Positions 40,278 through 53,143 of a DNA stretch of 61,461 nucleotides are shown here, piece after piece. Under the pieces are notes generated by a model that was not told the DNA's origin, did no database searches, and saw nothing but the letters and a program-made list of their open reading frames with translations. The position numbers and the translations under genes were made by a program. The first letter of the stretch is position 1; each line of letters begins with the position of its first letter. Source of the DNA: a virus; IMG/VR virus record IMGVR_UViG_3300042868_008304, positions 1 through 61,461 of that record. The stretch is one strand, 5' to 3'.

Positions 40278-43200
40278 ATGGCAACAAACAGCAAAGTATT
40301 CGTATCTCCCGGGGTATATACTTCCGAAGTTGATTTAAGTTTCGTAGCACAAAGTGTGGGGGTAACCACATTAGGTATTGTTGGTGAAACACAAAAAGGA
40401 CCAGCATTCGAACCTATCTTTATACGAAATTTCGATGAATTCTCAACTTTTTTTGGAGGAACATCCCCTGAAAAGTTTATTAATACACAAATACCGAAGT
40501 ATGAAGCTTCGTATATCGCAAAATCTTATTTACAACAATCAAATCAATTGTTTGTTACAAGAATTTTGGGATTGTCAGGATATGACGCGGGACCATCTTG
40601 GTCTTTTAGAACGATAGCGAATGTTGATAAAACAACAGTTGATTTTGACTGTTCAGGTAGTACATATGATTTTACATCATGTGAATCTATATGTACAGGA
40701 TATACGGAATATTCATTCACATTACCGTTTACCGGATGTAATAATGATATAAGTTCAGTTGTCTTTGGTGCATTTACAGGTGATGAATCGATAATAACAA
40801 ATAAATTTAATGAAACTTATGAAAATTTTAACGGAACATCGTCAACAATAATTTCAGATTTCCAACAACAAGTTTTCAATGTTATTGTTTCCTCAACAAC
40901 TTTATCAACTTCAGCAACCTCATTATACTGTTATGGTACAATATTAGGTGATGATTACGATAATTTAGTTTCAATAGGTTATACAAACGTAACAAACGTA
41001 TTCGACGTAAACAATGTTGATTCACATTTAGCTGATTATACTGCTCCAGAGAATGACCCTTGGTATTACGCATTATTTGATAATAATAATGGTAGTTATA
41101 CAGGTAGTTCTTACTATACGGTAATCGATACTCTTGGACAAAGTTCTACATCATCAAATTGTTCATCTTTCTATTCATTTAGTGTTCTTGGTGTTGCAGG
41201 AAGTATTAATTACAATAACAGCACAATTAGTGTTGTTTTACCTTTTGCGACTTTTTCAGGAACAAATTTATCAACTATTGTTCCAACGTTTAGTGCTTGT
41301 TGTACAGGTGTAACGGTAAATTTATCAGCACAAACTAGTAATGTATCGGTTGTTAATTTTTCAACAGGTGCTGTTACATATCTTTTAATACCTAACGATG
41401 GTAGTTCAACAGGAACATCTTTTAACGTAACCGTTGAAATACAAAATCCTTGTAACCCACTAACATCAGGTAATACTGGAAACTATACTTCAGGTTCAAT
41501 TAAAACTTGTTATACGGGTAGTGTTAGAGGTTCTGTTTATGTTTATACAGGAACATCTTATACAGACTTTGACGATTTAATTCTTGCAACACTTCGTTCA
41601 AGAGGTATTGCGACTTATGGTGCGGGTAGTGATGGACCAACTTATCAAGTAAATGATGTGACCGATGTAACAATGAATTGTACAGGTGGATACTCAAGTA
41701 TTGGTAAAAATCCTTATTCTGAATTTGGTTTAAACATAACTGATAAGGATAATAATACATTTTTCTTTGAAACCTCATTTAGTGAGTCAGATTCTAAATA
41801 TTTACCAAAAGTATTTGGTTCTTCAAACTTTGCAAAACCAAGAACTACGGTTCCATTATTTGTAGAAGAGAGATTTCAAACATTATTAAACTATGGTTAT
41901 AATAAAGGTTATATTAGAGGTATTAATTGTAATTTAGTTGGATTACCAAGAGCTAATAACAGTAATAACGATATGTCTTCGATAGCGTTTTATTTAGAAA
42001 AATACCAAACACCGTCTTCCCCTTGGGTTGTATCTGAATTAAGAGGTAGTAAAGTATACAATCTATTCAGATTCACAACAGTTTCTGATGGTGATGACGC
42101 TAACACTGAGGTTAAAATTTCAATAGCAAATATGTCATTTGGTAATTTAACTTTTGATATTTTAGTTAGAGATTTTTATGACACAGATAATAATCCTGTT
42201 GTTATTGAGAAATTCACAAATTGTTCGATGAATCCTCAGGATAATGCGTTTGTTGGACAAAAAATTGGTACTGCCGATGGAGAATACGCGTTGAACTCAA
42301 AATACATTATGGTTGAGATGAATGAGGACGCACCGATTGATGCGTTACCTTGTGGTTTCCAAGGATTTAGATTTAGAAATTACGCAACTTCTAGACCACC
42401 GTTCCCAATTTATAAAACTAAATATGATTACCCTGGAGAGGTTGTATTTGACCCACCATTTGGATTAAGTTCAGGTTCTAACTTGGCAATCCAAAGTCCG
42501 GGCGATAATGTTCGTAGAACTTACTTAGGTATTTCTACAGGATATGGTGCAGGATATGACCCTGATTTCTTCCAATATAAAGGTAAACAATTACCATTAG
42601 ATTTATGTACAGCTGTGGAAGGGAATGATTGGACATATAAAACAAGAGGATTCCATATGGATGTTAACGCATCATCAATTGTTTATCCGGGAACATCTAA
42701 CCCAGAATTCTTTGTTGGTGACGCACCATTTACATCAGACCCTGATAGTGAAGTTAGTCCTTATTACAGAATTTATTCACGTAAATTCTCATTATTAGTT
42801 CAAGGAGGATTTGATGGTTGGGATATCTATAGAGAATCTAGAACAAATACCGACACATTTAAATTAGGTAGAAGAGGTTACTTAAACGGGGCTTGTACAA
42901 GTATACAATATCCAACGGCAACAGGATGGGGAGCATTCAAGAAAATTACTGTTGGAAAAAATAATGTTGATTGGGCAAACACCGATTATTACGCTTACTT
43001 ATTAGGACAACAAACATTCTCTAATCCTGAGGCGGTGAATATTAACTTATTTGTTACTCCGGGTATTGATTATGTTAATAATTCTGATTTAGTTGAAGAT
43101 GCGATTGAGATGATTGAATTTAACAGAGCTGACTCATTATACGTTTGTACAACACCGGATATTGATTTGTTTATGCCAACAGTAAACTTGGCAACTGATT

Positions 43201-43871
43201 TAATTTACCCTCAAGAGGCAATAAATAACTTAGAAACTACAGGAGTCGACTCTAACTATACCGCAACATACTACCCTTGGGTATTAACAAGAGATAGTGT
43301 TAACAATACACAAATCTACTTACCACCAACGGCAGAAGTTGTTAGAAACTTAGCGTTAACCGACAACATCGCTTTCCCTTGGTTCGCGGCGGCAGGTTAC
43401 ACAAGAGGTATCGTAAACGCAATCAAAGCGAGAAAGAAACTTACTCAAGAAGATAGAGACACCCTTTACCAAGGACGTATCAATCCAATTGCAACTTTCT
43501 CTGATGTTGGGACGGTAATTTGGGGTAATAAAACACTACAAGTGGCTCAATCGGCACTTGATAGAATAAACGTAAGAAGATTATTACTTCAAGCTCGTAA
43601 ATTGATTTCAGCGGTATCTGTAAGATTATTGTTTGAACAAAACGACCAAAAAGTAAGACAAGACTTCTTAGACGCGGTTAACCCTATCTTGGATGCTATC
43701 AGAAGAGACAGAGGTTTATATGATTTCCGAGTTACAGTATCGTCAGATACGGCTGATTTAGATAGAAATCAAATGACAGGTAAGATTTACATCAAACCAA
43801 CCAAATCGTTAGAATTTATAGACATTACGTTCTATATTACTCCAACAGGAGCTTCTTTCGAGAATATATAA
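40278..43871 (+). CDS. 18-like: Tail sheath protein, gp18-like, enlarged
   Basis: 1197 residues, against 659 for T4 gp18. The N-terminus (FVSPGVYTSEVDLSF, then GIVGETQKGPAFEP) and C-terminus (FPWFAAAGYTRGIV near 1034, RRLLLQARKLI, LYDFRVTVSSDTAD, MTGKIYIKPTKSLEFIDITFYI) are classic contractile sheath core motifs. Roughly residues 115-540 form an insertion with paired cysteines and at least one immunoglobulin-like stretch (SNCSSFYSFSVLGVAG to VEIQNPCNPL). Sheath insertions map to the outer surface in known structures, so this probably adds knobs to the tail. An A-rich leader without a Shine-Dalgarno sequence precedes the ATG. A hairpin follows the stop. Confidence 0.9.
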   Translation: MATNSKVFVSPGVYTSEVDLSFVAQSVGVTTLGIVGETQKGPAFEPIFIRNFDEFSTFFGGTSPEKFINTQIPKYEASYIAKSYLQQSNQLFVTRILGLSGYDAGPSWSFRTIANVDKTTVDFDCSGSTYDFTSCESICTGYTEYSFTLPFTGCNNDISSVVFGAFTGDESIITNKFNETYENFNGTSSTIISDFQQQVFNVIVSSTTLSTSATSLYCYGTILGDDYDNLVSIGYTNVTNVFDVNNVDSHLADYTAPENDPWYYALFDNNNGSYTGSSYYTVIDTLGQSSTSSNCSSFYSFSVLGVAGSINYNNSTISVVLPFATFSGTNLSTIVPTFSACCTGVTVNLSAQTSNVSVVNFSTGAVTYLLIPNDGSSTGTSFNVTVEIQNPCNPLTSGNTGNYTSGSIKTCYTGSVRGSVYVYTGTSYTDFDDLILATLRSRGIATYGAGSDGPTYQVNDVTDVTMNCTGGYSSIGKNPYSEFGLNITDKDNNTFFFETSFSESDSKYLPKVFGSSNFAKPRTTVPLFVEERFQTLLNYGYNKGYIRGINCNLVGLPRANNSNNDMSSIAFYLEKYQTPSSPWVVSELRGSKVYNLFRFTTVSDGDDANTEVKISIANMSFGNLTFDILVRDFYDTDNNPVVIEKFTNCSMNPQDNAFVGQKIGTADGEYALNSKYIMVEMNEDAPIDALPCGFQGFRFRNYATSRPPFPIYKTKYDYPGEVVFDPPFGLSSGSNLAIQSPGDNVRRTYLGISTGYGAGYDPDFFQYKGKQLPLDLCTAVEGNDWTYKTRGFHMDVNASSIVYPGTSNPEFFVGDAPFTSDPDSEVSPYYRIYSRKFSLLVQGGFDGWDIYRESRTNTDTFKLGRRGYLNGACTSIQYPTATGWGAFKKITVGKNNVDWANTDYYAYLLGQQTFSNPEAVNINLFVTPGIDYVNNSDLVEDAIEMIEFNRADSLYVCTTPDIDLFMPTVNLATDLIYPQEAINNLETTGVDSNYTATYYPWVLTRDSVNNTQIYLPPTAEVVRNLALTDNIAFPWFAAAGYTRGIVNAIKARKKLTQEDRDTLYQGRINPIATFSDVGTVIWGNKTLQVAQSALDRINVRRLLLQARKLISAVSVRLLFEQNDQKVRQDFLDAVNPILDAIRRDRGLYDFRVTVSSDTADLDRNQMTGKIYIKPTKSLEFIDITFYITPTGASFENI

Positions 43872-43928: not shown

Positions 43929-44747
43929 ATGTTAAAAAATAGAATAAAAGAAGGTATTGACGAGTTTGGTGCCCCCGATGAAAAGTATTACGCGTTTGAT
44001 TGGGATGATAACATTGTTTCAATGCCAACAAAGATAATCTTGAAAGATGAAGAAGGTGACGAAGTAGGAATGTCTACTGAAGATTTTGCAACTTACAGAG
44101 AAGAAGTTGGAAAAGAACCTTTAGAATTTGATGGTCACACAATCGTAGGGTTTGCAAACGACCCTTTTAGATGGTTTGGTGTAAAGGGTGATAAACAATT
44201 TATTGTTGATGCGATAACCGCAAAACCGGGTCCGGCTTGGGATGATTTTGTTGAGGCAATTAATAACGGTTCAATTTTTTCAATTGTTACCGCTAGAGGA
44301 CACACACCTTCAATATTAAAAGAGGCTTGTTACAATTATATTGTGTCAAATACAAATGGGATTGATTCAGACGAATTGGTTAAAAATTTAGAAAAATATC
44401 GTGATTTAGCGGATGAAGAAAATGTCTCTAAAAGAGAAATGATTCGAGAATATTTAGACTTGTGTAGATTTTATCCGGTAAGTTACGGTGAGGGTTCTGC
44501 AACAAATCCGGAACAAGGTAAAATTAACGCATTAAAAGAGTTTGTTCAATATGTTAAGGCGATGTCTCAACATATACAAAAGAAAGCTTTCTTAAAAAAT
44601 AAAATAAATAATTATTTTGTCCCTAAGATAGGTTTTTCAGATGACGACTTAAAAAATGTGGATGTAGTGAAAAAACATTTTGAGCAAGACCCAGAGAATA
44701 TAATTAAAACATATTCAACAGCAGGAGGAATTAAAAAAGAATATTAA
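43929..44747 (+). CDS. HAD-like hydrolase-fold protein between sheath and tube
   Basis: 272 residues. FDWDDN (Asp24, Asp26) stands where HAD enzymes have DxDGT, IVTARGH near 119 fits motif II, and VPKIGFSDDDLKNV near 235 the acidic motif IV. Replacement of GT by DN after the second Asp is atypical, but both key acids are retained, so phosphatase activity is possible. The long helical insert (about 145-225) is a cap candidate. It sits between sheath and tube genes, where T4 has none. A structural or assembly role is conceivable. The substrate is unknown. Confidence 0.55.
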   Translation: MLKNRIKEGIDEFGAPDEKYYAFDWDDNIVSMPTKIILKDEEGDEVGMSTEDFATYREEVGKEPLEFDGHTIVGFANDPFRWFGVKGDKQFIVDAITAKPGPAWDDFVEAINNGSIFSIVTARGHTPSILKEACYNYIVSNTNGIDSDELVKNLEKYRDLADEENVSKREMIREYLDLCRFYPVSYGEGSATNPEQGKINALKEFVQYVKAMSQHIQKKAFLKNKINNYFVPKIGFSDDDLKNVDVVKKHFEQDPENIIKTYSTAGGIKKEY

Positions 44748-44910: not shown

Positions 44911-45399
44911 ATGGCTGATTTATTAATGAAAATGCCCATACCGTATGAACCAAAAAGACAAAATAGGTTTATTGTACGATTCCCTTCTACATTAGGGATT
45001 AACGAATGGTTTGTAGAGTCGGCTGCTAGACCACATATCACTATTAAAGACGTTGAGATACCCTTTTTAAACACTTCAACTTATGTTGCGGGTAGATTTA
45101 CTTGGGGAACAATTAATGTCAAATTTAGAGACCCAATTGGACCTTCAGCATCACAAGCACTTATGGAATGGGTGCGTTTATGTGCGGAGTCTGTTACAGG
45201 ACGTATGGGATATGCTGCGGGGTATAAGAAAAACATTGACCTTGAGATGTTAGACCCAACAGGTGTTGTTGTTGAAAAATGGATATTAGAAGGAACTTTC
45301 TTATCTGATGTTAACTTTGATACTTTAGCTTATAGTTCAGACGCATTGGCAACAATTTCTGCGACACTTCGTATGGATAGATGTGTATTAGTTTACTAA
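44911..45399 (+). CDS. 19-like: Tail tube protein, gp19-like
   Basis: 162 residues, T4 gp19 being 163. The KRQNRFIVRFPSTLGINEWFVESAARP start, ITIKDVEIPFLNTSTYVAGRFTWG and the closing LATISATLRMDRCVLVY are the standard tube pattern; the protein stacks as hexamers inside the sheath. A terminator follows, isolating it from the chaperone. Tube, chaperone and tape measure are in the order seen across tailed phages. Confidence 0.9.
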   Translation: MADLLMKMPIPYEPKRQNRFIVRFPSTLGINEWFVESAARPHITIKDVEIPFLNTSTYVAGRFTWGTINVKFRDPIGPSASQALMEWVRLCAESVTGRMGYAAGYKKNIDLEMLDPTGVVVEKWILEGTFLSDVNFDTLAYSSDALATISATLRMDRCVLVY

Positions 45400-45422
45400 T
45401 CAATTAAAATAAAATATATTAC

Positions 45423-45451
45423 ACCCTACATTTAATTATGTGGGGTTTTTT
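45423..45451 (+). terminator. Terminator after tube gene
   Basis: A 9-bp stem ACCCTACAT/ATGTGGGGT with one G-U pair and a 6-base loop, followed by six T residues. Confidence 0.8.
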
Positions 45452-45477
45452 ATTTATATAAAAAAAACATATCCTAT

Positions 45478-45485
45478 TATTTATA
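45478..45485 (+). promoter_or_regulatory. TATTTATA motif upstream of tail chaperone
   Basis: TATTTATAATAAAAAC, 16 bases before the ATG at 45502. It follows the terminator at 45423, consistent with separate transcription of chaperone and tape measure. Confidence 0.45.
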
Positions 45486-45501
45486 ATAAAAACAAAATTA
45501 T

Positions 45502-46257
45502 ATGGAACAAAATTTAATAGACGCTGCAACTGAAAATTTCAGCTTACCACACGATGTGGTTCAATTACCAACCGGAGGGATTTTTTATAAATCAAAAAAG
45601 AAAGCTGTTAAGATTGGTTATTTAACGGCAAATGATGAAAATTATTTAATCGGTTCTGGTCGTAATAGTGAAAATATTATATTAAAACTATTGAGAAATA
45701 AAATGTATGAACACGATTTACGTCCTGAAGAACTATTAGACGGTGATGTTGAGGCGATTTTAATTTTTTTAAGAAACTCTTCTTTTGGTTCGGAATATAG
45801 TGTTAATTTAATTGACCCGGGAACTGATAAACCATTTATTGGTTCGGTTATTTTAGATGAATTAAACATTAGAAAAACTGAAGTTAAACCTGATGAAGAT
45901 GGGACGTTTACAACTAAATTACCAAGAACAGGTGTTACAGTAAAATTAAGACCAACAACTTTTTATGATACTATTGAATTAGATAAAATGGTGGAACAAT
46001 ATCCCGTTGGTAGACAAGCCCCTAAAATTACTTGGAAACTGTTAAAACATATTGTTGAAGTTGATGGTAGTTCAGATAAATCAAAAATTGCGTTATTTGT
46101 TGATTCACTACCAATTATGGATTCTAAATACATAAGAAGTTTTTTAAGAGAAAATGAACCGTCATTGGACTTAAAAAGAAGTGTAATCGCCCCTTCAGGA
46201 GAATTGGTATCTTTCGAGATAACCTTTGGGGTGGACTTTTTTCGACCTTTCTTCTAA
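45502..46257 (+). CDS. Tail assembly chaperone/baseplate protein (T4 gp26-like), short form
   Basis: 251 residues ending in GVDFFRPFF. FSLPHDVVQLPTGGIFYKSKKK near residues 14-35, VKIGYLTANDENYL and LLRNKMYEHDLRPEELLDGDVEAILIFLRNSSFG near 65-100 match the gp26-type family of T4-like phages that sits before the tape measure and is often called tail assembly chaperone. Such proteins coat the tape measure during tail assembly. The frame continues with a +1 shift into a 50-codon tail. The short form is likely the more abundant product. An A-rich leader without a Shine-Dalgarno sequence precedes the start. Confidence 0.8.
   Translation: MEQNLIDAATENFSLPHDVVQLPTGGIFYKSKKKAVKIGYLTANDENYLIGSGRNSENIILKLLRNKMYEHDLRPEELLDGDVEAILIFLRNSSFGSEYSVNLIDPGTDKPFIGSVILDELNIRKTEVKPDEDGTFTTKLPRTGVTVKLRPTTFYDTIELDKMVEQYPVGRQAPKITWKLLKHIVEVDGSSDKSKIALFVDSLPIMDSKYIRSFLRENEPSLDLKRSVIAPSGELVSFEITFGVDFFRPFF
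46234..46246 (+). other. Candidate programmed frameshift site
   Basis: GAC TTT TTT CGA C. Phe-tRNA on TTT at 46240-46242 can slip forward to TTC (+1), facing GAC; CGA may pause the A site. A -2 slip on the T6 run would reach the same frame. A -1 slip would stop after about ten codons. Confidence 0.6.
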
Positions 46258-46396
46258 TCATAGACAATTATTAATTGAGGAATATTTGTACTTAGCTCAA
46301 ACAATATACGTATCATATTCGGATTTCCACACAATGCCGACATATGTTAGAAAATATTTAATAAATCGAGTAATCGAGAATAACACACCAAACTAG
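46244..46396 (+). CDS. Frameshift-encoded C-terminal extension of tail chaperone
   Basis: A 50-codon extension in the +1 frame from GAC at 46244 to TAG at 46394-46396, giving a long form of about 297 residues. The peptide includes LLIEEYLYLAQTIYVSYSD and MPTYVRKYLINRVIE. This is the motif I know from C-terminal parts of tail assembly chaperones: a helix, then an MPxYxR(K/R) turn and another helix. There is no good separate start; TTG at 46286 or ATG at 46340 would give only 36 or 18 residues. It lies exactly where tailed phages place the frameshifted chaperone (GT of lambda), between tube and tape measure. Confidence 0.65.
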   Translation, partial: DLSSNHRQLLIEEYLYLAQTIYVSYSDFHTMPTYVRKYLINRVIENNTPN

Positions 46397-46420
46397 TGAT
46401 TTAAAAACTATGTTTGGTGT
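46385..46420 (+). terminator. Inverted repeat after chaperone extension
   Basis: ACACCAAAC and GTTTGGTGT form a perfect 9-bp stem around an 18-base loop, overlapping the extension's stop codon. The following ATTTATTT is only moderately T-rich, so termination is likely weak. Confidence 0.5.
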
Positions 46421-46427
46421 ATTTATT
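46420..46427 (+). promoter_or_regulatory. TATTTATT motif upstream of tape measure
   Basis: TATTTATTTAGAAACAC, 17 bases before the ATG at 46445. The tail matches the motif upstream of the neck gene. Confidence 0.4.
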
Positions 46428-46444
46428 TAGAAACACATTTAATT

Positions 46445-48190
46445 ATGGTAGATAAAGCACCGGAGGGTACTTCAACAGGAGGGATAAAAGGACTAGGGGA
46501 CGCCCTTGGGTCTAATTTTGACCCAATCGCAATAGCAAAAGTAGTGTTGACACTTGATAATGCGGCAAGTGAAATGCTTAAGAAATTTGGTCAAGGTCAG
46601 GCTATGTCGGATTTATTACGTGGTAGTATGGCGGAGGCTGTTACTTCAGTAAGAAAATTAGGTGGTGATATTGCAGATGTTCTTGCGACACAAAAAGATG
46701 CGTCCGAAACTTTAGGTAGAAACGTTGTTTTATCAGAAAAAACAACTAAAGATTTATACGCAACAATGAAAGTTACCGGACAATCTGTTAAAGATATTGT
46801 TGCAGGTATGGCGGACGCGGGTATTGGTGCGGGAAGGGCAACAAGTGAAATGTTAAAAGTTGTTAATGTTGCTCGAGAATCAGGGGTTAATGCTCAGGCG
46901 GTGTCAGGTGCAGTTATTAAAAATATGGAGGCTCTTAATAAATTTAATTTTGCTGGTGGTGTTGAAGGTTTGGCAAAAATGGCAGCACAATCAACAGCGT
47001 TAAGAGTTGATATGGGTAAAACATTAGAGTTGGCTGACAGATTATTTGACCCTGAAAAAGCGATTGATTTAGCCGCATCAATGCAACGATTAGGTGTTTC
47101 ACAAAGTTCATTATTAGACCCATTAAAATTAATGGATTTAGCTCAAAATGACCCTGCTGAATTACAAAATCAAATTGCACAAATGAGTAAACAATTTGTT
47201 CAATTGGGTAAAGATGGACATTTTGAAATTATGCCGGGAGCGAAACGACAATTGAGAGAGATTTCAAGTGCTATGGGGATATCATATAATGACATTACTA
47301 AAATGGCGTTAGGTAGTGCCGACTTAGATAAGAAAATGAAGGAAATATCCTTTCCAAGCGCGACTGAGGACCAAAAGAAAATGATTGCCAATATGGCAGA
47401 AATGGGTGCCGGTGGAACTTATGAAATTAAAACAGCCGCGGGAGAAACTAAAGATGTTAGTAAATTAACAGGTCCTGAAATAGAAGCTCTTGAAAAAATG
47501 GCAAATACCGCTCCTCCAACAATGGAAGAGTTAGCCAAACAACAATTAACCGCAACACAATCTATTACGGCAGCGATAAATAGTTTGGCGGATAGAACGG
47601 GTTTAGGTGCTGCTCGTAGTGAAACTGCAGGTGGGATATTAAAAGGGACGAGAGCGGTTGCCACCGCGGCGTCAGAAATTCCAGGTGAAGGGTTATCAGC
47701 AAAAAACATTGCTCAAGGTATTGATAATACTGTGGACTCACTAAAAACTGCGATTGCAAAATATGCGGCGACAGGGGAAAAAACAGATGTTTTAGGAAAT
47801 ATTATGTCTAGTTTTGGAGGGTTTGTAAAAAAAGAATTAATGGATTCATTTTCAAATGTACAAGTTCAGGCGGATAAGCTAAGTGCGGAATTTCCTATGG
47901 CAACAGGTACAATAAAGGCATTCAACCAAATGATGGCAGGGACCTTACCTCCATCCTCAACAAATTCATCAATACCTCGAGGAACAGTTGGGACTAGTAG
48001 TTCACAAGTGTCAAATCAAAAATCAACAATGGACGTTAATTTAAATGTTAAAGTGGATTCTAATTCTCCAAATATTGATGCAAAACAAATGGAACAAATT
48101 TTTACAAATCCCGCATTAATGGAAAAATTAACAGTTAGTGTTAGAGATGGTATTAATAAAATGAATCCTGTTAAAAATGAACGACCTTAA
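46445..48190 (+). CDS. Tape measure/tail hub protein (T4 gp29-like)
   Basis: 581 residues, near T4 gp29 (590). Long Ala-, Lys- and Gln-rich helical stretches run through most of the protein (for example KKFGQGQAMSDLLRGSMAEAV near 40 and ITAAINSLADRTG near 375), with no large globular domain. The C-terminal 60 residues contain a Ser/Thr-rich linker and a VDLNLNVKVD-type strand followed by LTVSVRDGINKM. Such proteins set tail length and are chaperoned by the upstream gene product. Position directly after the frameshifting chaperone is the strongest evidence. Confidence 0.75.
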   Translation: MVDKAPEGTSTGGIKGLGDALGSNFDPIAIAKVVLTLDNAASEMLKKFGQGQAMSDLLRGSMAEAVTSVRKLGGDIADVLATQKDASETLGRNVVLSEKTTKDLYATMKVTGQSVKDIVAGMADAGIGAGRATSEMLKVVNVARESGVNAQAVSGAVIKNMEALNKFNFAGGVEGLAKMAAQSTALRVDMGKTLELADRLFDPEKAIDLAASMQRLGVSQSSLLDPLKLMDLAQNDPAELQNQIAQMSKQFVQLGKDGHFEIMPGAKRQLREISSAMGISYNDITKMALGSADLDKKMKEISFPSATEDQKKMIANMAEMGAGGTYEIKTAAGETKDVSKLTGPEIEALEKMANTAPPTMEELAKQQLTATQSITAAINSLADRTGLGAARSETAGGILKGTRAVATAASEIPGEGLSAKNIAQGIDNTVDSLKTAIAKYAATGEKTDVLGNIMSSFGGFVKKELMDSFSNVQVQADKLSAEFPMATGTIKAFNQMMAGTLPPSSTNSSIPRGTVGTSSSQVSNQKSTMDVNLNVKVDSNSPNIDAKQMEQIFTNPALMEKLTVSVRDGINKMNPVKNERP

Positions 48191-48229: not shown

Positions 48230-51200
48230 ATGTCAAATAGTACATTATCATTTGCTTCATCATCTTCATTTAGAGATATTTTATTGGCTAAAAATTTAGC
48301 CCCATATAATGTTGTCGGAGTATATTCACCACAAGTTGGTAATTTAACTTATGAAACAGTTTTAAATGTTAGTAATGTTATTGATTCACCAAATGACTTA
48401 ATTGCTAATGACCCATTTGCTGCACAATTATATCCATTAAATGAATATGGTCCTAATGGAGGTTATAACACAATAATAGATTATAATGGAGCTCCTCTTC
48501 CGGTAAATTCAAATCAGGGTGAGTATAGTCCGGATGATACTGTGTTAGATTTAGTTAATGAATTTTTTATTGATACAGCGTATATTGTAAACTATTATGG
48601 ACCTGTTGGTGGATTTAGCAATTTGTTTGGGGTTACCACACAAATGTTAGCAGCACCAATACATCAACCATATGGGTCTACGTTTATACCTTCAACCTAT
48701 TCTCCTTATTCAATATTATTATCAACAAATCCTACGGGTAGTGATGGTTCATTATCTCAGGATTCGTATTTAGCGAGATTAGGTGCTCTACAATTAAACG
48801 AGGCGTTTCAAGATAGGATAGCTAGACAAATTTTTATAAACACAGTTGGTCAAGTAAATTTAGAATCACTATCGGACCCATTTGAGGCTAGTTTAATTAT
48901 TTCAGGACAAGAACCTTTAATTTATAGAAATTGGAAGATTACGTCACCTGAGGACCCTATTACGGCAGCCGCTGACTTAATTACAAGATTAGGTGGTGCG
49001 TATTGGCCTGTTTCACCAATTCCGGGAGATTATTTTACAGATAACACAAGAAATGGTCAAACACAACAAACATCAAACGCGTTAAACGTAGTTAATCAAT
49101 TAACAGGTGGGTTTTTGGGTCCAATTTTAAATGCTAAAAGAAACCCTTCTGAAATATTTTTGGCGAACACCGGAAATGGACAAAGGTCTGTTTTATTTAG
49201 AAATCTAAATTATAATCGTTATCAACCAAGTTATAATAAAACTTTTGGTGGGTTATTAGGTGTTGGGCAAGCTATTGTTAGTTTAATAAACCCTGATAAT
49301 GGAACCTTAGTTGGTGGTTATTATGTTGGTAGTAGAAATGCTGAACCATCTACAATAACTTCACCACCAAATCAAGTTCCTGTTAACGCTTTTGGACAAC
49401 AAGAAGATGTTCCGGTATATGGACCATCTGAATTAGGTATTTTATTTGAGGGTAATCAAGACACTCTTAACTTTGGACTTGCGGCTAAATCATTAAGTGA
49501 TGGTGGTGGTATTGATGGACAATTTGTTTGGACATCACCAAAATATAAACCAAATGCGGGATTCAAAGCGACACCCGGAGGTGGGTCAGGTTCAGCGGAT
49601 TCTGAATTTAATTTAATTAGTAGCAATTACCTTAAAGACGAATCAACTAATTTTGTGTTTAAAGCAACATCAATTTTAGATGAAACTCAAAGATTAGTAA
49701 ATTCTGCTGATAATGTTCAAGGAATTTCAAGACTAAAACACGTCGGTAATGCTATTAATCAAGTTAGTAAAGTGTTTCACGATGGATATAAAGAAATGAC
49801 AAAAGGTTCTCAGGTTGTGTCGTATACTGACCAAACAACCGGTGGTGAGGCAGGTATTGAATATTGTAGAGTTTTTACTAAAGACACACCATATTACACA
49901 TATAATGATTTACAAAAAGTAGATGGTATTACAACATCAGGAAGAAAATTTGCTAGTTCAGTATTTGACAACACATTTAATTTAAATATTTCACCAACAA
50001 GAAATCCGGGGTCGACAAATATTATTGCCGATGGACCAAATGGTATTGGTGGGTATGCTAAAAAATATATGTTCTCAATTGAGAATTTGGCTTGGAGAAC
50101 ATCAAGTAAACAAGGTTTTACTTATGATGAACTACCTGTTTGTGAAAAAGGACCAAACGGGGGTAGAGTTATGTGGTTTCCACCATATGATATTAAATTT
50201 AACGATACAAGTAACGCTAATTGGACGGAAACTTCTTTCTTAGGTAGACCCGAACCAATCTATACATATAAAGACACTAGAAGAAGTGGAACATTAAGTT
50301 GGAAAATAATTGTTGACCACCCTTCGGTTATGAATGTTATTGTTGAGAAACAATTAAAAGGACAGAATAAAGAAAGAATTAATTCTATTATTGATTCATT
50401 TTTTGCGGGTTGTGTTAAATATGATATTTACGAATTGGCTAAAAAATTCAATACTGTCCCAACTAAAGATTTATATACTTATCAACAGATATTAAACGAC
50501 CCTAATTTAGATAAAAATACCGCAAAAGAGGTTATTAGTAGTAATGAAGGAAATGCGTCGGTTGGAACGGTAACAACGCCTCGTAATAGTTCGACAAAAT
50601 CAAACCCTGAGTTATCAATTGCCGATTTAAGTAAGTATAATAATTTAGGGTTCTATTTTGATAATGATGTTCCGGGACCAAATAATAAAACTGCGGAAAA
50701 ACCAAACTCATCATATAAGGCGGATTATGATAATTACACTAGTACTATGAATCAAGACCAATATGTTGCGATATCAACAAATACTTTTAGTCCACCAAGT
50801 ATTAATTTAAATGTTCAACCATTTTTTACTAATGTTGTTATTGACAATTTTAATCAGATTAACTCTGGTTTTGTTGAAGATGCTTTTAAAATATTAAGTG
50901 AAAAAACAGGGACTATTCAAATATTATTAACTAGTTCAGCTTCCGCTCCTGCGAGTAAAGATTACAATGTAAAATTATCCATAAGACGAAAAAATTCTGT
51001 TGTTGAATATTTACAAACAACTAAATTAAAACCATTTATTGATGTGGATAAGACACTAACGTTTCTTGATGTTAATAAAGGTGAGGGAGAAGTTGTTTCA
51101 TTCCCACAATCATCGACAGGTGTTTTTGGTGCGTCAGTTAACTGTACTGACGATATTTTATCAAAAACAAATAAAGTTACTAAAGATTCTCAAAAGTATT

Positions 51201-53143
51201 CTGTTAGTGCAATGGCTTGTCGAAGAGTTACATTAAAAGATATAAAAGTAACGGCAACACCTGTTGATAAACCGGTAGAACCTATTATTGAGGATGTTAT
51301 AATACCTCCGGTAGTGGCACCAAAACCAAAACCAAAACCAACATATCGAACAGAAAAAACAATAAAGGATGGGATTAGTAAACTAATTGTAAGAAGATTA
51401 CTTTCTGAATGTGATTATTTTGATGTTGTTAAAAAAGAGGTTCCTATGTTATATGATTCTATTCAGGAAAAAATCAAATATTTTAATCCTGCGTTCCACT
51501 CTATGACACCGGAAGGATTAAACTCTCGTTTAACCTTCTTGAATCAATGTGTTCGTCCTGGTGAAACAATTCCGGTTATTGGGGATAATGGACAGATAGT
51601 TGCAAATGATGCCTTAAATACCTCCTTTGGTGCTCCACCGGTATTAGTTTTAAGGATTGGGGATTTTTATAATTGTAAAATAATACCAAAAAGTGTTGCG
51701 TTCTCATACGAACCATTAGTGTTTGATTTAAACCCTGAAGGAATTGGTATTCAACCTATGATTGCTAATGTTTCAATGAATTTTGATATTATTGGTGGTA
51801 TGGGTCTTGAAAAACCTGTTGAAGAATTACAAAACGCATTATCATTCAATTACTACGCTAATACTGAAATTTATGACGAAAGAGCTAAAGCGACCGATGA
51901 TAGTTGGAAAAAATTAGACAAACAATATTTCCAAGATTTAATTGATGAACAACCTACGCAAACTCAAGTTGATAATCAACAAACAAATTCTGCGGGAGAA
52001 ACTATTGGACAAATTCAAACAACTGTTAATGGTGCTAGTGGTCAAACAGGTGATATCACTTATATGAAAATTATGGATAGTTTATTGGATGTTAGTAAAG
52101 AATATATTGTAAATCTAGTGAATCAATCAGAATCGACAATTAAATCATATAATGGTGGTGTTTGGCAATTAATGACTCAAGAAAGACAATATACAGGTGG
52201 TGAATTTAATATGGGAACATCAAGTCAATTAGTTACAATCTATGGTAAGTCAGTTTATGAACAAAGAGTGATTGATTTATTTTCGGCATTATTAAATGAT
52301 ATATCAAGTGGCACTAATTTTATTATTGTTGGTTTAAATAGTGTGTTTACTGACACAACAGCGGTTAGGAGTGTTACAACTAATTTAACAAATTACATTA
52401 AAGCAATGCAGACGGATTTCAGTAACGGGATTGAGGAAATTAGTAATAAGATTGTTGAACAAGAACAGGGTATGGTACAAGTTTTTAGAAAAATTAATTA
52501 TGTGACAACATTATCTGATGGTGTGTTGATAGATAGTAAAGCAAAAATTTATACAATTACCGCAACTGAAGAAGTTGACAGAGGTGATACTCAAGAGAGT
52601 GTGGACACATTCCAAGAAATGATATTTGATTATGATTTGGTTGCGACTAGAATGAATAAATATAATGAAACTTTAAGTAGTGTAGATTTTAATATAATTA
52701 GTAATGGATATACTGAACCGGGAGGATTTACTTCGGCGGTGTTTGATGATTTAACTGATAAAAGATTTTTTATGGTTATGGCTCAAGTATTCAATAATAG
52801 AAGTAATTTCAACACATTTAAATCTGCAATTATTACAAATGAGTTGGATAATACTTATGATGACTTATCTAAAAATTTTAACAAAATTGTTGATAAATTT
52901 AGAGATAGTGTAATTGAAGAATTAGATTTTGAAGAAAAAAATATTAAATCTCTTAAAAAATCGCCTGACTATATTGGGTGGACTAAAGATAACATTTATA
53001 ATAAGGGAAAAGTACGTAAGTTTACGTATACTACAGAACCTTCACCAACAAATGATGAACAAACTAATAATTTAATATTATTGTATAAAGGTGATAATAC
53101 AGGTGATAAAACAATTTGGACGGATAAAACTCAATTTAATTAA
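48230..53143 (+). CDS. Very large baseplate/tail-tube-junction protein
   Basis: 1637 residues. Residues about 610-780 contain MFSIENLAWR, FPPYDIKF and FLGRPEPIYTYKDTRRSGTLSW, a signature of proteins that initiate the tail tube on the baseplate (gp48/gp54-like, and PVC-type contractile systems). Residues about 1130-1230 contain PVLVLRIGDFYNCKI, SYEPLVFDLNPEGIGIQPM and ALSFNYYANTEIYD, a second conserved block. A Pro-Lys linker (KPKPKPTYRT) near 1036 separates the halves; the first 500 residues are unassigned. It is far longer than T4 baseplate proteins (gp48, 364 residues), suggesting fusion of several wedge or hub parts. The next gene begins two bases after the stop. Confidence 0.6.
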   Translation: MSNSTLSFASSSSFRDILLAKNLAPYNVVGVYSPQVGNLTYETVLNVSNVIDSPNDLIANDPFAAQLYPLNEYGPNGGYNTIIDYNGAPLPVNSNQGEYSPDDTVLDLVNEFFIDTAYIVNYYGPVGGFSNLFGVTTQMLAAPIHQPYGSTFIPSTYSPYSILLSTNPTGSDGSLSQDSYLARLGALQLNEAFQDRIARQIFINTVGQVNLESLSDPFEASLIISGQEPLIYRNWKITSPEDPITAAADLITRLGGAYWPVSPIPGDYFTDNTRNGQTQQTSNALNVVNQLTGGFLGPILNAKRNPSEIFLANTGNGQRSVLFRNLNYNRYQPSYNKTFGGLLGVGQAIVSLINPDNGTLVGGYYVGSRNAEPSTITSPPNQVPVNAFGQQEDVPVYGPSELGILFEGNQDTLNFGLAAKSLSDGGGIDGQFVWTSPKYKPNAGFKATPGGGSGSADSEFNLISSNYLKDESTNFVFKATSILDETQRLVNSADNVQGISRLKHVGNAINQVSKVFHDGYKEMTKGSQVVSYTDQTTGGEAGIEYCRVFTKDTPYYTYNDLQKVDGITTSGRKFASSVFDNTFNLNISPTRNPGSTNIIADGPNGIGGYAKKYMFSIENLAWRTSSKQGFTYDELPVCEKGPNGGRVMWFPPYDIKFNDTSNANWTETSFLGRPEPIYTYKDTRRSGTLSWKIIVDHPSVMNVIVEKQLKGQNKERINSIIDSFFAGCVKYDIYELAKKFNTVPTKDLYTYQQILNDPNLDKNTAKEVISSNEGNASVGTVTTPRNSSTKSNPELSIADLSKYNNLGFYFDNDVPGPNNKTAEKPNSSYKADYDNYTSTMNQDQYVAISTNTFSPPSINLNVQPFFTNVVIDNFNQINSGFVEDAFKILSEKTGTIQILLTSSASAPASKDYNVKLSIRRKNSVVEYLQTTKLKPFIDVDKTLTFLDVNKGEGEVVSFPQSSTGVFGASVNCTDDILSKTNKVTKDSQKYSVSAMACRRVTLKDIKVTATPVDKPVEPIIEDVIIPPVVAPKPKPKPTYRTEKTIKDGISKLIVRRLLSECDYFDVVKKEVPMLYDSIQEKIKYFNPAFHSMTPEGLNSRLTFLNQCVRPGETIPVIGDNGQIVANDALNTSFGAPPVLVLRIGDFYNCKIIPKSVAFSYEPLVFDLNPEGIGIQPMIANVSMNFDIIGGMGLEKPVEELQNALSFNYYANTEIYDERAKATDDSWKKLDKQYFQDLIDEQPTQTQVDNQQTNSAGETIGQIQTTVNGASGQTGDITYMKIMDSLLDVSKEYIVNLVNQSESTIKSYNGGVWQLMTQERQYTGGEFNMGTSSQLVTIYGKSVYEQRVIDLFSALLNDISSGTNFIIVGLNSVFTDTTAVRSVTTNLTNYIKAMQTDFSNGIEEISNKIVEQEQGMVQVFRKINYVTTLSDGVLIDSKAKIYTITATEEVDRGDTQESVDTFQEMIFDYDLVATRMNKYNETLSSVDFNIISNGYTEPGGFTSAVFDDLTDKRFFMVMAQVFNNRSNFNTFKSAIITNELDNTYDDLSKNFNKIVDKFRDSVIEELDFEEKNIKSLKKSPDYIGWTKDNIYNKGKVRKFTYTTEPSPTNDEQTNNLILLYKGDNTGDKTIWTDKTQFN

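Follow-up and report, generated by a model that had tools for sequence, protein, structure and literature searches.

A candidate +1 frameshift at UUU_CGN with a conserved upstream stem in a predicted T4 gp26-type tail chaperone gene of an IMG/VR virus and its relatives

Pairs of short and long tail chaperones of the G/GT type, made through −1 frameshifting, are reportedly the subject of work by Xu, Hendrix and Duda in 2004. In phage lambda, G and GT are a short and a C-terminally extended chaperone that arise by such a −1 shift (PMC5009743). The locus described here lies in a window of 61,461 nucleotides, the whole of the stretch that was analysed (positions 1 to 61,461 of IMG/VR virus record IMGVR_UViG_3300042868_008304). 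It resembles lambda in that a short and an extended chaperone would be produced from one start within a tail gene cluster, whereas its extension is in the +1 frame, no −1 slippery heptamer leads into that extension, and the protein is of another family. In T4, gp26 and gp51 are said to have been recognized as tail assembly chaperones by Vladimirov, Gautam and Davidson in 2022. A review of T4 lists both as hub assembly chaperones (PMC3004832), and the authors of PRFect, citing Vladimirov et al. 2022, mention T4-like phages in which a short gene is accompanied by a long, fused one (PMC10885494). Our predicted chaperone falls into the same protein family, in which gp51 comprises the short-form domain plus an extra C-terminal stretch, both domains being held in one protein; however, T4 uses two genes, while here there is one gene and a presumed frameshift.

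Forward shifts are represented by 350 sites in annotated tail chaperone genes of actinobacteriophages, which served in the training set of PRFect and, like the candidate described here, fall within a tail assembly chaperone gene; according to the same authors, no general +1 motif has been identified (PMC10885494). A likely +1 frameshift is noted for HSTV-2 (PMC5009743), and a TTT-CGC +1 shift has already been proposed for haloviruses of the HF1 group (PMC7230728), where TTT-CGC near the chaperone stop codon, a +1 extension and a place between tail tube and tape measure form an arrangement like that of our locus, whose tape-measure neighbour is presumed. By contrast, the HF1-group viruses are archaeal, the HF2 chaperone has 156 amino acids, and the sections of the source consulted describe no upstream stem (PMC7230728). 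Sites of the form UUU_CGN are also described in the influenza PA-X gene (UCC_UUU_CGU), in a study that predicted a class of UUU_C sites and remarked that CGN is preferred (PMC3498833), and in amalgaviruses (PMC5052127). These share with our candidate both UUU_CGN and a P-site slip to UUC, but operate on eukaryotic ribosomes, and PA-X is described as having no evident stimulatory signal (PMC5009743). An artificial hairpin placed upstream, combined with a hungry A-site codon, stimulates +1 shifting on the 70S ribosome and mimics an internal Shine-Dalgarno duplex (PMC6321510). Our locus likewise combines an upstream hairpin adjoining the E site with a putatively hungry A-site codon; unlike the hairpin of that engineered reporter, this one occurs naturally, shows covariation and encloses a large loop with interruptions.

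In the open-access literature consulted, we found neither an upstream stem at a +1 site of this kind nor a report on this clade, while −1 sites elsewhere are described. What is new here is the upstream stem GCCCC:GGGGY; TTT-CGC itself had been suggested for the HF1 haloviruses. The preliminary description of this DNA had not included the stem, the codon signature or the finding that other phages have UUU_C junctions. Since general rules for +1 sites are lacking, it is of value that the natural diversity of many viral genomes allows codon choice, slip site and stem to be read here.

Gene layout and protein family

The features at the junction are as follows.

45502 to 46257, + strand: frame-0 gene, predicted short form of a T4 gp26-like tail/baseplate assembly chaperone (PF12322, phrog_150, model of the fused product, fold matches)
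46244 to 46396, + strand: +1-frame C-terminal extension resembling the C-terminus of gp51, 50 codons and TAG (open frame, pN/pS, profile matches)
46237 to 46245, + strand: putative shift site, with TTT in the E site, TTT in the P site (46240 to 46242) and CGA in the A site, where UUU would re-pair as UUC (TTT_CGN conservation)

The frame-0 reading frame encodes 251 amino acids and ends with GTG GAC TTT TTT CGA CCT TTC TTC TAA, while the +1 frame opens 32 nt 5′ of the frame-0 stop codon and continues to the TAG at 46394 to 46396. A +1 shift at the TTT at 46240 to 46242 would thus add 50 extension codons (46244 to 46393) and give a fused product of 297 amino acids. The frame-0 end at 46257 and the 50-codon continuation had been reported in the preliminary description, and both coordinates hold, as does its remark that the −1 frame provides only about ten codons: that frame closes 17 nt after the start of the frame-0 stop codon, about 10 codons beyond the site. 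The arrangement shares with G/GT a conserved overlapping extension in another frame, which here is the +1 frame and not one entered by a −1 shift at a slippery heptamer.

The frame-0 product is predicted to be an assembly chaperone of the T4 gp26 type. It matches PF12322 (T4_baseplate) with 31.5–32.2 bits against a cut-off of 24.5 (E 1.1e-7) and phrog_150 with E 5.1e-13, and T4 gp26 and gp51 each match the full PF12322 model and phrog_150 as well, which upholds the earlier designation of the gene as a chaperone. For the extension, the profile of the clade matches that built from +1 extensions of 11 further sequences (E 2.2e-9 in hhalign), and the profile of those 11 matches the C-termini of T4 gp51, KVP40, Bellamy and two others (hhalign E 3.1e-6). 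Compared directly, the clade extension and the T4-type C-termini give a weak match (hhalign E 0.025, probability 1.9), and the chaperone alignment against gp51 alone is not significant (hhalign E 0.21), so that the link to T4 runs through PF12322, phrog_150 and the intermediate set of 11 sequences. One alignment (A4) was dropped as probably misplaced, its extension pieces having only 16–31% identity to the fused protein. A model of the fused 297-residue product has a pLDDT of 86.8 and shows the extension as helices, at 57–76 by block, this part having been predicted without alignment depth. Its best match among predicted viral folds is a protein of an uncultured phage, the third is a hub subunit of SP-15, and most of the named matches, which rank lower, are baseplate hub proteins of T4-like type; among solved structures there was no sequence match at E ≤1 and no Foldseek match at E ≤0.001.

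The surroundings of the gene contain the following features.

44911 to 45399, + strand: predicted tail tube protein (phrog_4542, E 7.2e-27; Pfam gp19 below its own cut-off)
40278 to 43871: reading frame of 1197 amino acids in the place that the tail sheath takes in related phages, by position only
45423 to 45446, + strand: terminator-like hairpin in the gap between the tail tube gene and the chaperone gene (matched in folding by 4 of 200 shuffles of the 56 nt around it)
46378 to 46428, + strand: stable hairpin overlapping the end of the extension (−17.2 kcal/mol, z −4.5, equalled by none of 200 shuffles)

The chaperone gene had been placed between genes for the tail tube and the tape measure. 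The tube side of this placement is supported by phrog_4542, but the 581-residue frame downstream (46445 to 48190) has no tape-measure match in Pfam or PHROGs and none to the tape measure of immuto; nor did that frame or one of 272 residues (43929 to 44747) give any convincing match in Pfam or PHROGs, or one of 1637 residues (48230 to 53143) in PHROGs. The record of SP-15 has a terminator annotated at the place corresponding to the hairpin at 45423 to 45446. The hairpin at 46378 to 46428 is followed by A/T-rich sequence and is possibly a terminator. No tRNA genes were found in the window (1 to 61,461).

Conservation of the site and codon choice at the A site

Three protein-based scans of viral contigs returned 240 loci (the best 80 of each), in which a single contig often recurs; those with enough flank, together with the window, provide 154 distinct end regions. 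A scan with a DNA motif added 38 loci, which were pre-selected for the site and are therefore excluded from the site counts, giving 192 distinct loci in all. A set of 175 distinct 90-nt clade junctions, part of them found through the DNA motif itself, was used for the extension and for folding. A scan with GXN1 as the query and a scan of genome contigs led to one relative and one distant relative, respectively.

Among the matches listed, each of the 154 protein-found end regions has an in-frame TTT_CGN inside the last 10 codons, i.e., a P-site UUU_C with a CGN codon in the A site, as in the UUU_CGN +1 class, and the E-site codon is TTT in all but 5 of them (149), those 5 having TTC. Because 154 distinct end regions retain this arrangement, sequencing error or chance is ruled out as its source. 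The string T6CGA, which the preliminary description had singled out, is thus kept as TTT_CGN and mostly as a run of six T, but the final A is not, CGA being found in only 13 of 154. The extension, whose conservation in relatives had been proposed as a check, is complete in 169 of the 175 junctions, the remaining 6 running past the end of the stored sequence. It is under purifying selection as a protein in the +1 frame, where its pN/pS is 0.27; read in the other two frames, the DNA gives 0.80 and 1.53. These values come from the 305 pairs at 65–98% identity among 2000 that were sampled.

The choice of arginine codon at the A site departs strongly from usage elsewhere in the same loci. Among the matches listed (n = 154), CGG occurs 57 times, CGC 50, CGT 34 and CGA 13, and AGA/AGG not at all, although AGA/AGG make up about 70% of the Arg codons in these loci. 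For the 103 loci with enough data outside the chaperone gene, which share ancestry and do not count as independent events, the Arg usage of each locus predicts AGA 60.6, AGG 9.5, CGT 24.6, CGA 6.9, CGG 0.8 and CGC 0.6, whereas CGG 43, CGC 27, CGT 19 and CGA 14 are observed. The pooled shares of Arg codons are 0.7% for CGG, 0.4% for CGC, 6.8% for CGA and 23% for CGT. As in the UUU_CGN class, the A-site codon is rare, but relatives with CGT are not rare-codon cases. In the window, CGN accounts for 22% of Arg codons and CGA for 9%, which makes CGA uncommon, yet not the rarest. The 27 long reading frames of the window contain a single in-frame TTT-CGN, the one at the shift site, vs. 21 occurrences of TTT-AGA and 2 of TTT-AGG.

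In the +1 frame, the N of CGN becomes the middle position of the following codon (GNC), and a preference for Gly or Ala there could by itself account for the surplus of CGG and CGC. The C after TTT itself looks selected, however, because AGG would serve both frames like CGG, with Arg in frame 0 and the same residue in the +1 frame, and yet it is never seen; such a selected C is what slippage from UUU to UUC requires.

The upstream stem

A short stem precedes the site in the coding sequence of the chaperone.

46189 to 46193, + strand: 5′ arm of the stem, GCCCC (no pair of the five lost in any of 192 loci)
46228 to 46232, + strand: 3′ arm of the stem, GGGGT (Gly GGG in 107 of 108 loci; linked change in two loci)
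46195 to 46203, + strand: conserved TCAGGAGAA within the loop (TCA 93/108, GGA 107/108, GAA in 94 of 95 Glu codons)

The 3′ arm ends 7 nt 5′ of the P-site codon at which slipping is proposed. All five pairs of GCCCC:GGGGY are intact in 192 of 192 distinct loci, 154 of which were obtained without motif selection; in the other 38, the motif had fixed four of the five 3′-arm bases (among them the last, as T or C), leaving the 5′ arm and the third base of the Gly codon free. Synonymous choice in this region is frozen (Ala GCC in 98 of 99, Gly GGG in 107 of 108, GGG being 10% of Gly codons in these loci), and where the sequence varies, pairing is maintained. For example, the first pair is G-U in 142 loci, G-C in 26, A-U in 24 and A-C in none, all 24 loci with ACCCC having A-U, and two loci carry a linked double synonymous change, GCACC with GGTGT. 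In the window clade, the stem adjoining the E site is thus kept by compensatory change.

RNAalifold selects this stem both on the upstream 69 nt and, when scored by default, on the 90-nt alignment, and at least four of its five pairs are present in the minimum-energy fold of the upstream 69 nt of 171 of the 175 individual sequences. With another scoring of the 90-nt alignment, TCAGGAGAA is paired with the downstream TTCTTCTGA instead; we set this pairing aside by argument, as its downstream part is dual-coded and would lie inside the ribosome at the time of the slip. When one arm is slid by 1–3 bases, the paired cells fall from 1128 to 349–753 of 1225. In a tree-aware test, in which changes were redistributed on the gene tree in 500 simulations, the observed pairing was reached by 2 simulations for the total, 26 for the first pair and 5 for the third, two of the stem pairs being invariant. 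An outer flanking pair, paired in 108 of 175, was reached by 1 of 500, and the inner flanking pair gave no covariation signal (301 of 500 as good).

The case for the stem is based on the family and not on the window sequence alone, because the segment taken from the window does not outdo dinucleotide shuffles, 64 of 200 of which fold as well; synonymous shuffles give 14 of 200 in one test and p 0.055 in another. For other clade members, the number of equally good shuffles among 200 is 60 (L179), 41 (L116), 1 (L114) and 0 (L132). No Rfam family matched above its gathering score in 45400 to 46500. The loop segment TCAGGAGAA includes the Shine-Dalgarno-like AGGAG in a genome without Shine-Dalgarno leaders, and reads TCAGGTG in L116 and L307. 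No Shine-Dalgarno-like leader (AGGA, GGAGG or GAGGT at −18 to −4) was found for any of the 27 window reading frames of at least 150 codons, and an internal Shine-Dalgarno stimulator is accordingly unlikely in the window.

Other phage lineages, alternatives and a proposed mechanism

Among 20 phage records chosen from search hits, T4 and HF2 being kept apart, 11 carry TTT_C a short distance 5′ of the stop codon together with an open +1 frame, namely LR756508, GXN1, SP-15, BRock, LuckySocke, pSt2308, GiJojo, QdP_Psa3, phiXF1, RHph_I42 and immuto; homology of the extension was profile-tested for the first six of these. In two further records of the 20, a +1 frame is preceded by TTT_A (LIS04) or TTT_T (Mel-JY01); TTT_T is also found in L197 and most of a related group, L181–L198. 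In five of the 20 records (Atu_ph07, Bellamy, KVP40, Serratia BF and Salmonella SD-6), a −1 frame is open behind T_TTT_TTC; small separate genes are annotated in the records of this group, and a frameshift in it is a possibility. LR756511 and PhiXhv-16 were assigned to neither group.

Against synonymous shuffles, an upstream hairpin by the E site is supported in BRock (p 0.007) and LR756508 (p 0.042), near-significant in SP-15 and the window (p 0.055 each), not significant in L183 (p 0.092), GXN1 (p 0.137) and phiXF1 (p 0.187), and without signal in Mel-JY01, immuto, RHph_I42, L197 and LIS04 (p 0.37–0.88). Combined by Fisher's method, p is 0.0054 over 12 +1 lineages vs. 0.85 over 5 −1 lineages. 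A wider hairpin test gave 40 of 200 shuffles for LuckySocke, 37 for pSt2308, 40 for GiJojo and 78 for QdP_Psa3; for HF2 it gave 1 of 200, with 12 of 200 for plain folding energy.

Instead of arising by a frameshift, the extension might be an independent gene with its own start codon within the chaperone gene. The preliminary description had seen no good separate start, which is true of 7 of the 175 junctions, where the open +1 frame has no ATG, GTG or TTG up to extension codon 10, but does not extend to the rest: the window has a +1-frame TTG at 46226, an ATG occurs up to extension codon 10 in 72 of 175, and a start preceded by a Shine-Dalgarno-like motif occurs in 22 of 175. The homologous domain is annotated as a small gene of its own in KVP40, Bellamy, SP-15 and BRock, and a small gene is also annotated for the extension in immuto, though not in GXN1 and LIS04. 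On the other hand, the +1 frame of 6 junctions opens only 5 nt ahead of the P-site codon, a separate gene accounts for the C after TTT only if its reading starts upstream of the site, and T4 gp51 joins both domains in one protein, so that we consider internal initiation improbable. In several members of L181–L198, which have TTT_TGG instead of TTT_CGN ahead of the +1 extension, the +1 frame opens just 20 nt 5′ of the frame-0 stop codon and contains no start codon there.

A shift by −2 on the U6 run, which the preliminary description had left as an option beside +1, would lead into the same frame, and U6 is present in 149 of 154. However, TTC TTT in 5 of 154, and CTG TTT or AAC TTT in other phages, would re-pair poorly after −2, whereas UUU to UUC after +1 would be a perfect re-pairing; +1 fits better, and we regard −2 as quite unlikely. 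These same relatives, with just T3, argue against transcriptional slippage giving two mRNAs, for which T6 is a suitable homopolymer but which leaves both CGN and the stem unexplained, and we give it very little credence. Slipping could also be sought upstream at GGG_G (46228 to 46231), a tetranucleotide that permits +1 re-pairing and whose GGG is found in 107 of 108. This candidate was rejected, with next to no probability left to it, since L152 and L154 have a +1-frame TAG directly after GGG; moreover, L116 and L307 carry GGT, and the stem explains GGG better.

We return to +1 slippage from UUU to UUC, and hypothesize, with a good deal of confidence given the comparisons described above, that one gene yields a short and a long tail chaperone through such a slip at an uncommon CGN codon, aided by the hairpin. 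Most ribosomes would stop at 46257 and release the short form. A minority, we infer, would pause with tRNA-Phe on the P-site UUU while the uncommon CGN waits in the A site; the tRNA would then advance by one base to pair with UUC, and translation would continue in the +1 frame, adding the gp51-like C-terminal helical domain of the long form. The hairpin, with its 3′ arm 7 nt 5′ of the P-site codon, probably aids shifting, and we infer that it may do so by refolding behind the ribosome and pushing it forward, thereby standing in for an internal Shine-Dalgarno duplex that is apparently unused in this genome. Such a substitution is attractive because none of the 27 window reading frames has a Shine-Dalgarno-like leader.

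More broadly, UUU_C as the slip codon, a deliberately uncommon CGN and an upstream hairpin refolding at the ribosome exit might form a natural, compact +1 module of bacterial viruses, replacing the internal Shine-Dalgarno duplex where genes lack Shine-Dalgarno sequences. In the same family, phages with U_UUU_UUC at the matching Phe-Phe pair might shift by −1, so that the direction would flip when U6CG moves by one base relative to the frame, and the T4 gp26/gp51 pair might represent duplication in place of frameshifting. Taken jointly, we rate this set of propositions as evenly poised between right and wrong. A direct route to the direction of the shift and the junction might be offered by Flavobacterium phage immuto, which is more distantly related, has a named host and carries a TTT_CTT site, but gave no sign of an upstream hairpin.

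The string TTTTTTCG is also found in five −1 phages (L091, L092, L093, L402 and L403), where it stands one base out of phase, as T_TTT_TTC G. It falls there at the corresponding Phe-Phe pair, and one string may thus serve opposite directions of shift.
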